In this document: piece after piece, positions 5,204 through 33,469 of the stretch | Numbering within the stretch: position 1 is the first letter of the stretch | Layout of the letters: each line of letters starts with the position of its first letter | Origin: a virus | Direction: 5' to 3' (one strand) | Length of the DNA stretch: 37,522 nt | Virus record (IMG/VR): IMGVR_UViG_3300030115_000016 | Span: 1 to 37,522 of that record | Notes under the pieces: model-generated | Told to the model about the DNA's origin: nothing | The model's input: the letters and a program-made list of their open reading frames with translations, nothing else | Database searches by the model: none | Made by a program: the position numbers and the translations under genes

Positions 5204-7387
5204 TTACAAGTTATTAATTGCCTGAGCCATAATGTGAATCGAGCTAACCGCCGCGCTTGATTGAGCCGTCCAAGTCGTGTTGGCCGTGACCTGGGCAAGT
5301 GGCACCGGCAGATTAATTACCGCGCCCCCGTTTGCAGCAATATCCACGATGAGTTTAATCGTTCCCGCAGTGCCCGAGCGAATCGTGATAGTCGTGGCCG
5401 TTGCACTTGAATTGGTAATGACGAGCTGACAAAGGTCAAGGAAGGTGCCCACAACCCCCGCAAGCAGGGTTGTTTCTGCCGTTGAAGCGGTAAGCGTAAT
5501 ATTCCCATCCACTTTCAAAAGACGCGGGGCAAGGGTCACGACTTCACGCCCGAGGCTATCAAAAAACGTGTTCACACGTGCAAGCGATGCAACGGAAGTT
5601 GGTAGCACGTTTGTTTGTGCGATCCCGCCCACTTTGACCGGGTTTCCTGAATCGGCTGTACCGCTTGGAATATTTCCGATTGTATGAAAATCATTGTCAG
5701 ACGCTTGCGTAATCGAAAGAGAATTAGAGGCAAGCCTGATCCCTTGAGCAAACGCAGCCCCGCCCACCTGGGCTAGATTCTCATTCCAAGGCGTCGCATT
5801 TGCCGTACCTTGATTGGATGTTACCGTTCCAGAAACGGGTACGGTTCCTGAGATAGCAACCGTTCCAGATACTGGCACCGCACCTTGATCGGATGCGATA
5901 ACTACAGGCATCGAGCTTACGGAAAGCTTGCTTCCAAGCGTAACCGCAGTCCCGCCGAATTGAGCAATGTTCGCATTCCAAGGCGTCGCATTTGCCGTAC
6001 CTTGATTGGCGGTAACTGTACCAGAAACGGGTACGGTTCCCGAAATGGCAACTGTTCCAGATACTGGCACCGCACCTTGATCGGATGCGATAACTACAGG
6101 GATAGATCCGGCCATGAGTTTTTGACCCAAAAGCTCAAGCCCGGCTTGAGTTCTTAAGCTTACATGAAGTCCACGATTGGCCGTGAGTCTAACCGTCCCC
6201 TCGGTGCCCGTTGCAAGGGCCGCAGCCGCGTCGTTGAAAACACCGCCTGTCGGGACAAGTGCGGTAACTCCCGCAGCCCAGGTCGCGCCATCTGCCGCTG
6301 AGAAACCTGCACCGCCACCCGAGACGATAGCGACGTTTAATCCGCCCGATGTCGTGCCGATTTCAACGCCTGCTTGTGTTCGTAAGTTCGAATGAATCGC
6401 TCGGTTAGGGGTAAGCCTGACCGTCCCCTCGGTGCCCGTTGCAAGGGCCGCAGCCGCGTCGTTGAAAACACCGCCTGTCGGGACAAGTGCGGTAACTCCC
6501 GCAGCCCAGGCCGCGCCATCTGCCGCTGAGAAGCCCGCGCCACCACCCGAGACAATGGCGACATTAATCCCGCCCGAAGTAGTACCGATTTCAACGCCCG
6601 CGGCGGTTCTTAAGTTTGCGTGCAAAGCACGATTGGCCGTGAGTCTCACGGTTCCCTCGGTGCCGGAGGTCAGAGCCGCAGCCGCATCATTAAAAACCCC
6701 GCCCGTAGGGGCCAGGGCCGTAACGCCCGCCGTCCATGTCGTGCCGTCTGCAACGGAAAGGCCCGCGCCACCACCCGAGACAAACACGGGATTGCCTACG
6801 GTACCGAGCTCGACGCCCGCCACGTTTCTTAAGTTCACCTGCAAAGCTCGGTTTGCCGTAAGCCTAACCGTGCCCTGTTGGCCCGCGGTCAAAGCCGTTG
6901 CGGCATCATTGAAAACCCCGCCTGTCGGCGTGAAAGTGGAAGCTCCCGCAGTCCATGCCGCCGCGTCAGTAATGGAAAGGCCACCCGATCCGCCGCTTGA
7001 GGTAAAAACAGGATTTCCTACGGTACCAAATTCAACGCCTGCGGCATTTCTTAAATTGACTTGCAAAGCTCGGTTTGCCGTAAGCCTAACCGTGCCCTGT
7101 TGGCCCGTTGTGAGCGCCTGGGCTGTATCGTTAAATGCGCCCCCAGTAGGGGTAAACGTGGAAACGCCCGCAGCCCAAACGGCCTCGTCAATAATGGAAA
7201 GGCCACCCGATCCGCCGCTTGAGGTAAAAACGGGATTTCCTGCCGTACCGAATTCTACGCCCGCCTGATTTCTCAGGTTTACATGAAGCGCACGATTCGG
7301 CGTGATCCTGACTTCACCCGGAGTCATCGGGATGGTGAGTATAGCAAGAGTCGTATCGTTAAAAATTCCGCGTATTGAAAGGCCCAT
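5204..7387 (-). CDS. Modular repetitive tail fibre protein (727 aa)
   Basis: The N-terminal ~400 residues are six tandem modules of about 70-77 aa. Each contains a FNDxxxxL...GxxGTVRLTxNRALxxNLR core, ending ...GVEFGT..NPVF or GGINVAIV, and a Gly-rich linker. The next ~150 residues hold a second repeat, VPVSGTVAISGTVPVSGTVT with QGTANATPWN, present twice. The C-terminal ~180 residues are a beta-rich unique domain (TLLAGVVGTFLDLCQLVITN and following). It has no enzyme motifs. It is probably a long trimeric fibre or whisker whose length is set by module number. The ribosome site AGAGGTAATT precedes the ATG. Neighbouring module copies are nearly identical at DNA level, so copy number may vary. 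Confidence 0.75.
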   Translation of the reverse strand: MGLSIRGIFNDTTLAILTIPMTPGEVRITPNRALHVNLRNQAGVEFGTAGNPVFTSSGGSGGLSIIDEAVWAAGVSTFTPTGGAFNDTAQALTTGQQGTVRLTANRALQVNLRNAAGVEFGTVGNPVFTSSGGSGGLSITDAAAWTAGASTFTPTGGVFNDAATALTAGQQGTVRLTANRALQVNLRNVAGVELGTVGNPVFVSGGGAGLSVADGTTWTAGVTALAPTGGVFNDAAAALTSGTEGTVRLTANRALHANLRTAAGVEIGTTSGGINVAIVSGGGAGFSAADGAAWAAGVTALVPTGGVFNDAAAALATGTEGTVRLTPNRAIHSNLRTQAGVEIGTTSGGLNVAIVSGGGAGFSAADGATWAAGVTALVPTGGVFNDAAAALATGTEGTVRLTANRGLHVSLRTQAGLELLGQKLMAGSIPVVIASDQGAVPVSGTVAISGTVPVSGTVTANQGTANATPWNANIAQFGGTAVTLGSKLSVSSMPVVIASDQGAVPVSGTVAISGTVPVSGTVTSNQGTANATPWNENLAQVGGAAFAQGIRLASNSLSITQASDNDFHTIGNIPSGTADSGNPVKVGGIAQTNVLPTSVASLARVNTFFDSLGREVVTLAPRLLKVDGNITLTASTAETTLLAGVVGTFLDLCQLVITNSSATATTITIRSGTAGTIKLIVDIAANGGAVINLPVPLAQVTANTTWTAQSSAAVSSIHIMAQAINNL
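5780..7330 (-). repeat. In-frame DNA repeats of the fibre gene
   Basis: About 230-bp units recur through 6140-7330. The copies at about 6197-6300 and 6428-6531 are almost identical. A shorter ~190-bp unit (GGCGTCGCATTTGCCGTACC and following) occurs at about 5787 and 5979. All are in frame and correspond to the protein modules. Confidence 0.85.
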
Positions 7388-29611: not shown

Positions 29612-29650
29612 ACTATCAAACCATTGTCAACCGACATTTTGACCGACCGA
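29612..29650 (-). repeat. Dispersed GTCGGT/GTCGAT repeat, site 4
   Basis: The minus strand reads CGGTCGGTCAAAAT, GTCGGTTGACAA, TGGTTTGATAGTGG. It lies over the 3' end of the overprinted locus and upstream of the membrane-protein gene. Confidence 0.7.
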
Positions 29651-30070
29651 GAGATTATTTGAAACTGGCAAGGCGCATGAACGCTTCCCGCGCAGCTTGC
29701 GGAACCACGGAGTTACCAAGGCATTTAATTCGGTCCACCCGCATGGGTAGCCCATTAACCACTCGACCCACGTCGGGTTCAATTGCCCACCGATTTTCTG
29801 CGATAGTGTTTTCTGACCCTCTTTCCGATTGCCGATCCCACCGTGGCCTCGACTTGCTTCCGACGCTCGCGGAGTCGGCCATACCTGGACATATCTTCCT
29901 AGCGTTCGCTGTGTGTGTTTCCCGGTTCTCGGATTGTAAAGGCGCTCGTTCGGACCCGTGGTCACTTCCCAGTCTATCGCCCCAGCTTCCTGTGCACTGG
30001 GAGTGGGCAAGGGCTTCGGCGTGTTGGGTGAGAGCTTCGGCGCGGGAGCTCGCGCGCTCTTGGTGCCCAT
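29627..30070 (-). CDS. Overlapping-frame protein of the WPTP / LNPTWVEWLMG type (147 aa)
   Basis: This frame lies inside the 213-aa gene. ATG 30070 follows GGAGG at 8-base spacing. The product has LPTPSAQE (21-28), ERLYNPRTGKH, WPTPRASE (64-71), IGGQLNPTWVEWLMGYPCGW (about 94-113) and TPWFRK (120-125). The repeated '(W/L)PTPxAxE' and 'LNPxWVEWLMGxPxGWT' motifs are common in phage proteins annotated as C5-methylase C-termini or of unknown role. The frame keeps convincing amino acid sequence over its whole length, unlike the other frame in this stretch. It has no catalytic methylase motif. Confidence 0.6.
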   Translation of the reverse strand: MGTKSARAPAPKLSPNTPKPLPTPSAQEAGAIDWEVTTGPNERLYNPRTGKHTQRTLGRYVQVWPTPRASEASRGHGGIGNRKEGQKTLSQKIGGQLNPTWVEWLMGYPCGWTELNALVTPWFRKLRGKRSCALPVSNNLSVGQNVG

Positions 30071-30296
30071 CGTGCTGGCCTCCAAAAACCATCGTTTCCC
30101 AAAGCATGGGCGGCCCGCCCCACCACGCATGATCGAGTCCCAGGAACACGGTCGACACTCGTACTTCGCCGATATAATTTTCGGCTACCTGGCGATTGGA
30201 AGTTGCAAAATACTTAGCCCACTGGATTAAATCCTCGCACTTGATCGGTGTTTCTCCGTCCGCGGCAAGGCGGTAGTATCCCAAGGCAGTTTTCAT
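29655..30296 (-). CDS. DUF-type phage protein with Dcm-like C-terminal tail (213 aa)
   Basis: Residues 1-100 (VSTVFLGLDHAWWGGPPMLW, then ETMVFGGQHDGHQER) match a common phage protein in which 'TVFLGLDH...GPPxLxETMVFGG' is conserved. Residues about 105-165 are low-complexity Ser/Arg/Gly and look non-native. Residues about 168-207 (IEPDVGRVVNGLPMRVDRIK, then CLGNSVVPQ) match the C-terminus of Dcm-type cytosine methylases. The catalytic PCQ and ENV motifs are absent, so it is not an active methylase. The tail shares its DNA with the LNPTWVEW motif of the other frame. ATGA coupling at its start supports translation of the first half. Confidence 0.6.
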   Translation of the reverse strand: MKTALGYYRLAADGETPIKCEDLIQWAKYFATSNRQVAENYIGEVRVSTVFLGLDHAWWGGPPMLWETMVFGGQHDGHQERASSRAEALTQHAEALAHSQCTGSWGDRLGSDHGSERAPLQSENRETHTANARKICPGMADSASVGSKSRPRWDRQSERGSENTIAENRWAIEPDVGRVVNGLPMRVDRIKCLGNSVVPQAAREAFMRLASFK

Positions 30297-31046: not shown

Positions 31047-31291
31047 TCGGGAACCGCCTCAGCTTTTTTTGCGGATCTTTCGACTCTGCCCCAATCCGAC
31101 CCGGTGAGGGAGTTGCACCACACTCGTTCAATCCAATCAAACGAAAGCTGCGCTATAAACTGAGCTTGCTCGCGAGTCTCACCATAAAAAATTGCAACCG
31201 TCTGGATAACGTCGCCATCGGTATCGGATACCGCGCACACCCACTTTTTATTTTTGGTGTTATAAGTCGCGTCGTTTCTTTTTAAATTCAT
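31043..31291 (-). CDS. Hypothetical protein (82 aa)
   Basis: ATG 31291 is preceded by GGAGGAG and overlaps the stop of the initiator gene (ATGA), so translation is coupled to it. The product (NTKNKKWVCAVSDTDGDVIQ, AIFYGETREQAQFIAQLSFD, WIERVWCNSL) looks like a small alpha/beta domain with a strand-strand-helix layout. No family is named. Coupling to the replication initiator may point to a replication accessory role, but this is weak evidence. Confidence 0.55.
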   Translation of the reverse strand: MNLKRNDATYNTKNKKWVCAVSDTDGDVIQTVAIFYGETREQAQFIAQLSFDWIERVWCNSLTGSDWGRVERSAKKAEAVPE

Positions 31292-32652
31292 TCCGGTTTC
31301 TCCTCCGGGACAAGCCCGTTTTTCAATGCCCACGATCCCAGCGCGAGACGTCGCCCCGGCCCTTTTGTTACGTCACTCATGAATGGAGGCGCATAAGCTC
31401 CCAGGATTTCCTCGGGATCAGGGGCGTCATGGTGACGCGCCTGAAATGCTGCCTCGTAGATTGCGTTTTGTTCGTCCGATCTTTTGTCAGCCTCGGCCTG
31501 TAAGCGATCCCGCTCCACTTTCGGATCTAAGACCACTGGTGCCTTGTCATCTTTTCGGAGGTAGTCATCGCTCGCGCCGTAGAGATTGCCCTTGACGATG
31601 ATGCCCATGAGAAACGCGCTCACGTTTTTAGGCCCGACTTTCTTGTGGGATAAATCCCAGGCATACGCTTCCAGGGAATCTTGAAGCTCATCGGGTCGAT
31701 ATTTTGACGCCAGGCTTTTGTATGCGGTTTCTTTTTGGGATCGACCAAACCACGACAACGGCGACTTGATCGACAACCACTCAACGGGGATCTCTGTCGT
31801 AGTTGTATTTGATTTAAGACTACTAACTACTACAGGGGCGCTTGCTATCGAATTTGCTATCGGATTGCTACCGATTAACCCGGCGCGTTGGTCCCTGAGA
31901 AGTGCGTCATAAACCCATTTTGGCAGCTCATAGATTGTAGCTCCAAGGGGTCCAGATGATGACGGCCCGGGAGCGATGTACCCCTTTTTGGCAAGACGGT
32001 CGCGAGCGTTTTTAGCCACGCCCAGATTGCCATTTGCGAGTTTTTGAAGCTCCCTTCCCTGCACTGGCCGAGTCGTCAATGAGTTCTCAAAACAGCACTC
32101 TGAAAACAGAAAATCCAAAATCACTCGTTGCAGGCCGCGCAAGAAAATAAGCCCGAATTCTTGCTCTCGGTTTGCTATCGAATTTGCTATCGGATTGCTA
32201 TCGATTAACTTACCGCGTTGTTTTGGCTTTGCTACCGGATTGCTACCGGATTGCTCTCGGTTTGCTATCGAATTTGCTATCGGATTGCTCTCGGTTTGCT
32301 GTTGGTTTGCTACCGGATTGCTACCGGATTGCTCCCGATTATTTCGGGTTTCTACGGCAGGTGAGGGGTAGGGTGCAGCATCTTCATTCACAAGGTTTCC
32401 AGACACTAGAGCGACCGGAGAAGGAATGTCAATAGGTCGGTTGACAATAGGTTCGATAATTTCAACCACCGGCCTGGCACACATCGGAACATCAACTAAA
32501 CGTTCGCGCTCTGCGATCTGGTTCAGGGTCGCAGCGTCTAATGCGTAATTCGCTGCGATCCCTTCGCCGTCATCCTCAACGGAAAACCTTTCGCCCTTAC
32601 CCCTTCGGCGCGTTCGGCTTTTTAAATTTCCGTCTGTAACCGCCTGATTCAA
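31288..32652 (-). CDS. Putative replication initiator with internal iteron origin (454 aa)
   Basis: Follows parA by one base, from a TTG start. Layout: basic N-terminus (SRTRRRGKGERFSV), a linker, residues about 104-164 with repeated NPIANSIANREQ / SNPVAN peptides, a winged-helix-like domain at about 170-230 (LQRVILDFLF...GRELQKLANG...RDRLAKKGYI), a second short SNPIANSIA segment at about 259-270, and a C-terminal helical domain (SWFGRSQKETAYKSLA...DELQDSLEAYAW). A wing-helix initiator carrying its own binding repeats in its gene recalls lambda O and some plasmid Rep genes in architecture. Homology to either is not shown. It probably recruits host helicase/primase to the embedded origin. Confidence 0.6.
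   Translation of the reverse strand: MNQAVTDGNLKSRTRRRGKGERFSVEDDGEGIAANYALDAATLNQIAERERLVDVPMCARPVVEIIEPIVNRPIDIPSPVALVSGNLVNEDAAPYPSPAVETRNNREQSGSNPVANQQQTESNPIANSIANREQSGSNPVAKPKQRGKLIDSNPIANSIANREQEFGLIFLRGLQRVILDFLFSECCFENSLTTRPVQGRELQKLANGNLGVAKNARDRLAKKGYIAPGPSSSGPLGATIYELPKWVYDALLRDQRAGLIGSNPIANSIASAPVVVSSLKSNTTTTEIPVEWLSIKSPLSWFGRSQKETAYKSLASKYRPDELQDSLEAYAWDLSHKKVGPKNVSAFLMGIIVKGNLYGASDDYLRKDDKAPVVLDPKVERDRLQAEADKRSDEQNAIYEAAFQARHHDAPDPEEILGAYAPPFMSDVTKGPGRRLALGSWALKNGLVPEEKPE
31842..31875. repeat. Iteron cluster 2 (3 units)
   Basis: Three units TTGCTATCGAAT, TTGCTATCGGA and TTGCTACCGAT. With flanking sequence to about 31892 they form a ~50-bp near copy of 32172-32222 in cluster 1, lying about 330 bp away across the winged-helix coding part. 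Confidence 0.8.
32161..32339. repeat. Iteron cluster 1 (14 units), candidate replication origin
   Basis: Fourteen units of TTGCT(A/C)(T/C)CG(G/A)(A/T), starting at 32161, 32172, 32184, 32195, 32229, 32240, 32251, 32262, 32274, 32285, 32296, 32307, 32318 and 32329. Most are 11 or 12 bp apart, about one helical turn, with one 23-bp interruption. The AGCAA core (minus strand) falls in all three codon phases of the surrounding gene (4, 6 and 4 units), so the repeat is kept as DNA and not as peptide. Confidence 0.9.
32429..32457 (+). repeat. Dispersed GTCGGT/GTCGAT repeat, site 8 (inverted orientation)
   Basis: The plus strand reads TCAATAGGTCGGTTGACAAT, then AGGTTCGATAA, inside the initiator gene (encoding EPIVNRPIDIP). 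It is the only clear member with the motif on the plus strand and lies about 90 bp from the iterons. Confidence 0.65.
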
Positions 32653-32653
32653 T

Positions 32654-33469
32654 TTAAACGCTCAAGCTAATTGCTGATGTCACCGCTTTGGCGAATCCTA
32701 AGTAATCGGCAGCCGCGCGGGAAGTGGGTGCCCATTCATGGATCAGCTTTCGCTTGACCTGGGAGGTCTTCACTTTAACGTCATGGCGGATCGGATCAAA
32801 CACGCAAGCCCCTGCATCGGGGAGCTCATTGCGTTCTTTGACGTAAATCTCAAGATCCTGTTGAGTATCAAGATCCATGTTGCGGCGGCTATCGAACATC
32901 GTCGGGAGAACTCCGAGCACCCGAGCAAGCTGAATATCTTGCCCTTTAAACGACTCACGGAGCTGGTGGATGAACGTGACCGTATTTTTAACCCCAACGT
33001 ATCCAAAGAGGTCGAGCGTGCAGGGGATGACCATATAATCGCAATAGGCGAGGATATTGGAGGTCAGAAGCGAGAAGGCGGGTGGAGTGTCGAAAATGAT
33101 GTAATCATACTTGCTGACGTTCTTAAAACACCTGGAAATCAGGCGCTCGGCGTCGGGCTTATGCATGAGCTCCTTTTCAAAATCCCGCATTGCCCGGCCA
33201 CCAGACAGAATCACGTCGAGGTTAGGGCGGACTTCAATAGCCAGCTTTTCGGGGTCAATTCCGTTCATGAGCACAGCGGCCAAACCGCCTTCGGCCTGGC
33301 CGAGCTTGATACTAAAGCTTGTTTTGATACAAGACTGCTCGTCTGAGTCTACGATCAAAATCTTGGCGTCAGGCTCTAGCTGCCTGATCCCACTGACGAG
33401 GCCCAAGACAGTTGAGGTCTTCCCGATCCCGCCCTTGTTATTCATAATCGCAATTTTTTTCGATGTCAT
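32654..33469 (-). CDS. parA: ParA-family partition ATPase (271 aa)
   Basis: Deviant Walker A KGGIGKTS (residues 12-19, with signature Lys12), Walker A' IVDSDEQ (39-45) and Walker B IIFDTPP (124-130) are all intact, at the usual ParA length. ParA ATPases move plasmids or prophage-plasmids to both daughter cells with a centromere-binding partner. No ParB-like gene is recognisable next to it. The partner could be one of the small unknown or HTH/RHH proteins. The ribosome site GAAAGGGACTAA precedes the ATG. It forms an operon with the initiator gene, and a non-coding region with possible promoter elements lies upstream. Confidence 0.88.
   Translation of the reverse strand: MTSKKIAIMNNKGGIGKTSTVLGLVSGIRQLEPDAKILIVDSDEQSCIKTSFSIKLGQAEGGLAAVLMNGIDPEKLAIEVRPNLDVILSGGRAMRDFEKELMHKPDAERLISRCFKNVSKYDYIIFDTPPAFSLLTSNILAYCDYMVIPCTLDLFGYVGVKNTVTFIHQLRESFKGQDIQLARVLGVLPTMFDSRRNMDLDTQQDLEIYVKERNELPDAGACVFDPIRHDVKVKTSQVKRKLIHEWAPTSRAAADYLGFAKAVTSAISLSV

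Follow-up and report, generated by a model that had tools for sequence, protein, structure and literature searches.

Why does the coding sequence of a viral gene contain a dense array of short repeats, and is this array kept for the peptide or for the DNA? The locus that raises the question lies in a complete IMG/VR virus record of 37,522 bases, which was analysed as a whole (here, the window) and whose genes include those for terminase, portal, head, Erf and exonuclease proteins and for a ParA, straight after which follows a gene for a 454-aa protein. From sequence comparisons, we argue that the product of this gene is probably a replication initiator whose origin lies within the gene itself, and that the 11-bp repeats there are most likely the docking sites of the protein.

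The window gene and its two repeat clusters

The initiator-like gene (31288..32652, minus strand, TTG start; defined by ORF calling and tblastn to plasmid proteins) begins one base past the stop codon of the directly upstream gene for a ParA-family ATPase (32654..33469, minus strand; Pfam AAA_31, 3.5e-33). The 454-aa protein has no Pfam or PHROG family match of useful significance. A winged helix-turn-helix (wHTH) domain, the predicted DNA-reading part, occupies approximately residues 167-255 (31888..32154, minus strand); it is supported by a profile match with an E-value of 3e-29, for which the model itself includes the window sequence, and by an AlphaFold2 model with a pLDDT of about 74-91. 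The C-terminal helical region (31288..31798, minus strand), for which C-terminus comparisons in relatives and weak fold matches suggest a DnaD-like arrangement, would be the contact to the host helicase or replisome; its AlphaFold2 model is poor and of low confidence. Because the window ParA is 51% identical to that of plasmid pBdHAGR4, a Bdellovibrionota host is likely, and the virus probably infects predatory Bdellovibrio-type bacteria.

Elsewhere in the window, two long overlapping minus-strand ORFs of 213 and 167 aa lie in different frames (29627-30296), where a frameshift or overlap is possible; the 167-aa ORF ends in a LNPTWVEWLMGYP motif that we take to be methyltransferase-like. A 727-aa structural-looking protein (5204-7387) contains in-frame tandem repeats of 222/228 bp.

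An earlier note on this DNA had described seventeen AGCAA-anchored 11/12-bp units on the minus strand of the 454-aa gene, and our motif count returned the same 14 + 3 arrangement. The main cluster (32161..32339, minus strand) lies upstream of the wHTH codons and comprises 14 units of the form (T/C)CGRTAGCAAW at 11/12-bp spacing, with AGCAA starting at 32161, 32172, 32184, 32195, 32229, 32240, 32251, 32262, 32274, 32285, 32296, 32307, 32318 and 32329, i.e., with ten spacings of 11 bp, two of 12 bp and one 34-bp gap. The second cluster (31842..31875, minus strand) lies downstream of the wHTH codons and comprises three units starting at 31842, 31854 and 31865. All 17 AGCAA of the gene fall inside the two clusters; the core seems perfectly conserved because only AGCAA-bearing units were counted. 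Of the 19 minus-strand matches to the extended motif CG[AG][TG]AGCAA in the whole window, 16 lie in the gene, and the motif is nearly absent elsewhere. In 2000 synonymous-codon shuffles of the gene, in which the protein was held fixed, AGCAA was found at most 12 times (17 observed), CGRKAGCAA at most five times (16 observed), and exact 6-mer matches at lag 11 reached a maximum of 14 and a mean of 0.96 (30 observed).

In the main cluster, the AGCAA core is read in all three codon phases as previously claimed, i.e., four times as SN, six times as A and four times as EQ/QQ/SQ. The earlier note had taken this as evidence for selection on the DNA. Within the window alone, this argument is weak because the arrays have a 45-bp in-frame superperiod and both clusters have the in-frame peptide LI.SNPIANSIA in common, and these features could stem from duplication. 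The strong evidence for selection on the DNA comes instead from the relatives.

Relatives on plasmids and in phages

A tblastn search of plasmids with the window protein returned four Bdellovibrio proteins (best 7e-10), each encoded directly after a ParA gene. Repeats of 11 bp are present in all four genes, in three of which they clearly flank the wHTH, and the repeat unit differs among all four. The wHTH profile gave 35 matches in 24 of 369 Bdellovibrionota genomes as well as seven further loci, three of them archaeal and without arrays; these three marine euryarchaeal wHTH-membrane proteins were set aside as distant relatives. Forty other loci on Bdellovibrionota plasmids and contigs, found by the wHTH domain, have 11-bp arrays that lie within the gene and mostly flank the wHTH on both sides. 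In 32 of 41 loci, exact 6-mer matches at lag 11 outnumber those in every one of 200 synonymous shuffles, while at lags 10 and 13 most loci have almost none. The unit is specific to the lineage, lies on one strand and, with few exceptions, occurs in every codon phase of a gene; CAAA is contained in 30 of 44 units, and automatic calling gave no unit for loci L062 and L077. ParA is encoded directly upstream in 39 of 41 loci. As the observation that would speak against its origin reading, the earlier note had named relatives that keep the peptide and lose the DNA unit. We see the opposite: the arrays and ParA are kept while unit and peptide have changed. Peptides that change around an 11-bp architecture that stays match the prediction of DNA-level selection.

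In the homologue on plasmid pBdHM1 (6678-8840, 720 aa), the units are mostly paired and spread over about 1 kb. Genes for RNR, dUTPase, RecA and SSB are present on this plasmid too, possibly a phage-plasmid. A terminal-repeat test for circularity of the MAG contigs was negative.

Two phages with terminases 59% identical to that of the window encode ParA and an initiator-like gene with units AAACCTAGAGAT and AATCAAAAGGG, strong trios (see below) and unrelated linker peptides. The window terminase was not found in L089-type phages, and the module therefore seems common to different phage lineages. Among 12 related or module-bearing records, which may be fragments, an integrase was present in two module-less phages and in no module-bearing phage. 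Direct tblastn of the window protein in named phages and the virus-contig and family scans gave no match, virus-contig scans with two alignments (A1 and A2) no confirmed relative, and a scan of virus contigs with the window ParA no relative.

In gammaproteobacteria, plasmids of Legionella, Fluoribacter and Piscirickettsia encode ParA and a wHTH protein that lacks the C-terminal domain. In a Legionella MAG (L015, 3131-3600), parA and a wHTH-only gene are preceded by about 43 nearly perfect 11-bp units (TAAACTAGAGA), whose core is identical to that in plasmid pBdHAGR4 and phage L092. The wHTH gene of a Legionella antarctica plasmid (L119, 2759-3424) contains 6.5 copies of a 102-bp repeat, each with 11-mer sites.

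A putative unwinding element and the exchange of cassettes

Past the second cluster, most genes contain a GC-rich spacer, TAGTAGTAG trios and an A+T-rich stretch, often with an inverted CTA repeat. Of 46 dereplicated members, 36 have a trio run, as do 31 of the 41 that were not fetched by the trio motif; the chance expectation is 0.015 per 260 bp, and in 29 of 35 cases the run starts 1-9 bp past the last unit. The 6 nt preceding the trios are 69% G+C, and the following 50 bp are 77% A+T compared to 61% for the genes. In the window, the putative element TAGTAGTTAGTAG-tcttaaatcaaata-CAACTAC (31799..31832, minus strand) lies 6 bp past the last iteron behind the GC-rich CGCCCCTG; it is irregular and weaker than in most relatives, and for A+T the 50 bp from it rank within the top 0.9% of the gene. 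The element is not present in L007 (pBdHM1), L008, L061 and others. As a probe of virus contigs, the trio DNA element alone gave 20 matches, 11 of which have 11-bp arrays, with a wHTH within reach in ten of these 11. No consistent DnaA box (≤1 mismatch) was found. The bias toward serine AGT and threonine ACT codons in the trio region is circular evidence because the region was chosen by its TAG repeats.

An inverted TAG/CTA trio element also occurs inside ORFs without 11-bp arrays in other phages, L091 (6269-6321) and L103 (4830-4882). These ORFs, with SSSS...TTT peptides, may encode different HTH initiators, and the trio element may be a more general origin element.

The repeat unit is coupled to the wHTH. 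Unit similarity correlates with wHTH similarity (Mantel r=0.45, p<0.0005; 0 of 2000 permutations as high) and not significantly with C-terminus similarity (r=0.05), and a partial Mantel test agrees that the unit tracks the wHTH and not the C-terminus. Pairwise comparisons show the array-wHTH-array exchanged as one block between relatives on plasmids and viruses. First, in three near-identical phages, ParA and the Rep N-terminus are at 95-99% DNA identity; L089 and L098 are 97% identical through this part and return to 96% identity from the trio element onward, but in the intervening segment the array-wHTH-array does not align, the wHTH is only 34% identical and the unit is different. Second, two plasmids of one strain (L005/L006) have the C-terminus in common and different cassettes; near-identical C-termini accompany different wHTHs and units within HAGR004, MAG G001 and one phage group, and moderately alike C-termini (68%) do so within G003. 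Third, the converse is found in L085/L088, with an identical unit, wHTHs 64% identical and C-termini 30% identical, and in L056/L060, which have wHTH and unit in common but not the C-terminus. Short runs of other iteron types (ACAAACCTAGT and CACAGATCGTA) precede the main array in L095 (4033-4096) and L093 (8243-8384), as if they were remnants of earlier cassettes.

Replication, partition and known systems

The suggestion of a self-contained origin in a winged-helix initiator gene beside ParA gains support at the sequence level from the trio element, the arrays of the relatives and GC-skew minima. In pBdHAGR2 (48 kb) and pBdHM1 (161 kb), the minimum lies 1.7 kb and 5.6 kb from the gene, respectively, with the maximum nearly opposite; the skew of two small plasmids was not significant. 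Several relatives, and not the window protein, match PHROG families annotated as replication initiation protein or DnaD-like helicase loader. The best PDB fold match is DnaD (weak, E 9.5e-3), virus fold matches include replisome organizers, and the weak DnaD/replisome-organizer matches span both domains. Counting against the initiator reading are the lack of a consistent DnaA box, the low-confidence C-terminal model, the irregular trios of the window and their absence from some members, and a second candidate initiator, HTH_36, in L090-type phages.

A dual module, in which one protein and one array serve replication and, via a putative contact with ParA, segregation, is a less probable reading that still merits attention; it overlaps with the initiator reading, and the likelihoods that we attach to the two are not exclusive. 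Here, partition would be the older function, carried out by wHTH, ParA and iterons, and the branch of Bdellovibrionota and phages would have gained a replisome-recruiting C-terminus and the trios later. The distribution of parts speaks for this reading: Legionella and Piscirickettsia have wHTH, ParA and 11-mers without the C-terminal domain, and Bdellovibrionota and phages have them with the C-terminal domain and trios. The module may have started out in partition, or may have a role in it as well.

Partition alone, the main rival, with the wHTH protein as a ParB-like centromere binder, the array as an intragenic centromere and ParA as the motor, is improbable. The 39 of 41 loci with ParA directly upstream have the make-up of a ParA-type partition locus (ParA beside a gene for a DNA-binding protein with a repeat array), and ParA, winged helix and 11-mers also suit a centromere system. 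In TubR/tubC and pNOB8 AspA, a winged-helix protein, short tandem sites and a partition ATPase gene lie together, and TubR binds iterons of about 12 bp. Foldseek also lists the pNOB8 centromere-binding protein 4rs8, which we take to be the protein of the AspA centromere system. Moreover, the gammaproteobacterial relatives are ParA with wHTH-only proteins, 11-mers are found in Legionella both ahead of parA and within the gene of the short wHTH protein, and skew minima fail to tell an origin from a nearby centromere. However, partition leaves unexplained the trio/AT-rich element, usually 1-9 bp past the last unit, the C-terminal domain, which the gamma branch lacks, the PHROG matches to replication initiators, and pBdHAGR4, on which no other initiator was clearly recognised by Pfam (a Replic_Relax match was below threshold). 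The module also differs from TubR/tubC and pNOB8 AspA in its intragenic arrays, C-terminal domain and trio element, and its ATPase is of the ParA and not the TubZ type.

That the protein merely represses its own operon from the array, with no role in replication, is very unlikely: the wHTH is closest in sequence to transcriptional regulators, but an operator would not look like nine to 43 units within coding sequence, with one cluster on each side of the wHTH, a conserved element resembling an unwinding site, and a trio at which the swaps have their borders. Tandem duplication without selection, or selection for a repetitive linker peptide, to which the superperiod and common peptide of the window point, deserves practically no credence and is already contradicted by the comparative sequence data, i.e., by the 11-bp period kept in relatives with unrelated peptides and units, the synonymous-shuffle tests, and a unit that varies with the wHTH but not with the remainder of the protein.

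The closest working model for the initiator reading is RepA_N of pSK41, in which a winged helix binds Rep boxes that lie centrally in the rep gene, the origin encodes a linker, and a host-specific C-terminal domain resembles DnaD (PMC5703833). In the chimera pPR9, a swap of about 500 bp replaced the DNA-binding domain and origin while the C-terminus was kept, and the plasmid is compatible with pSK41 (PMC5703833). The module shares with RepA_N the repeats inside the rep gene and a host-conserved C-terminus that is exchanged independently of the DNA-binding part; it differs by many more units of 11 bp in two clusters flanking the wHTH, by the ParA operon and by the trio element, and RepA_N is found in Firmicutes whereas the module is found in Bdellovibrionota and phages. 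RepA_N (PF06970) did not match the window protein or the four plasmid relatives at E≤1. Our best reading is that the module works like RepA_N of pSK41, without detectable relationship.

Lambda O binds direct repeats (ori-lambda) within the O gene, beside A+T-rich DNA that unwinds. Similarly, SPP1 oriL lies in gene 38, and the initiator binds direct repeats beside an A+T-rich unwinding region (PMC6316719). The module resembles both as a phage initiator with repeats in its own gene and an A+T-rich region, and differs in repeat length, repeat number and the ParA neighbour. The earlier note had likened the suggested origin to those of lambda O and iteron plasmids. Phage_rep_O (by Pfam) and Rep_3 gave no match in the window protein or its plasmid relatives, O-like PHROG matches are weak (best 5.9e-6) and concern part of the members only, and Rep_3 plasmids have iterons of about 17-22 bp compared to 11-bp units here. 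Despite the short unit, initiator-gene origins with internal repeats, such as the pSK41 Rep boxes and SPP1 oriL, are an established kind, and we class the module as a new family of this kind.

The trio region, in turn, resembles the bacterial basal unwinding system, in which a DnaA box is followed by about 4 bp of GC-rich sequence and then 3'-GAT-5' trios (PMC8287927). The module likewise has a site, a short GC-rich spacer, TAG repeats (irregular in the window) and A+T-rich DNA. By contrast, it is an initiator iteron and not a DnaA box that adjoins the trios, the trios are often in facing orientation, forming an inverted repeat, and the element sits inside the coding region of plasmids and phages.

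In the initiator reading, we suggest that the winged helix binds the 11-bp units flanking its own coding segment, which would line up the initiator along about one face of the helix. Next to the last unit come the GC-rich spacer, the TAG trios and the A+T-rich stretch, which would melt. The C-terminal helical domain would then recruit the host helicase or DnaA machinery, and ParA of the same operon would serve segregation. The array-wHTH-array would act as a cassette that sets specificity, evolving and moving between replicons in one piece, and each replicon would thereby belong to an incompatibility group of its own. Phages with the module may live as extrachromosomal prophages. More tentatively, with somewhat less than even confidence, we propose an undescribed replicon family whose unwinding element is of the DnaA-trio type but has an initiator iteron where the DnaA box would be, all of it within the initiator gene. 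In this family, cassettes of diversified specificity would recombine at the trio border, generating new incompatibility or superinfection groups. No earlier description of the module was found in the open-access literature searched.

The module is likely to govern replication and incompatibility in plasmids and plasmid-like phages of Bdellovibrionota. Its more than 40 wHTH-unit pairs form a series for reading a DNA-recognition code, and it is a clear example of a coding region whose DNA is itself preserved, in whichever phase it is read.
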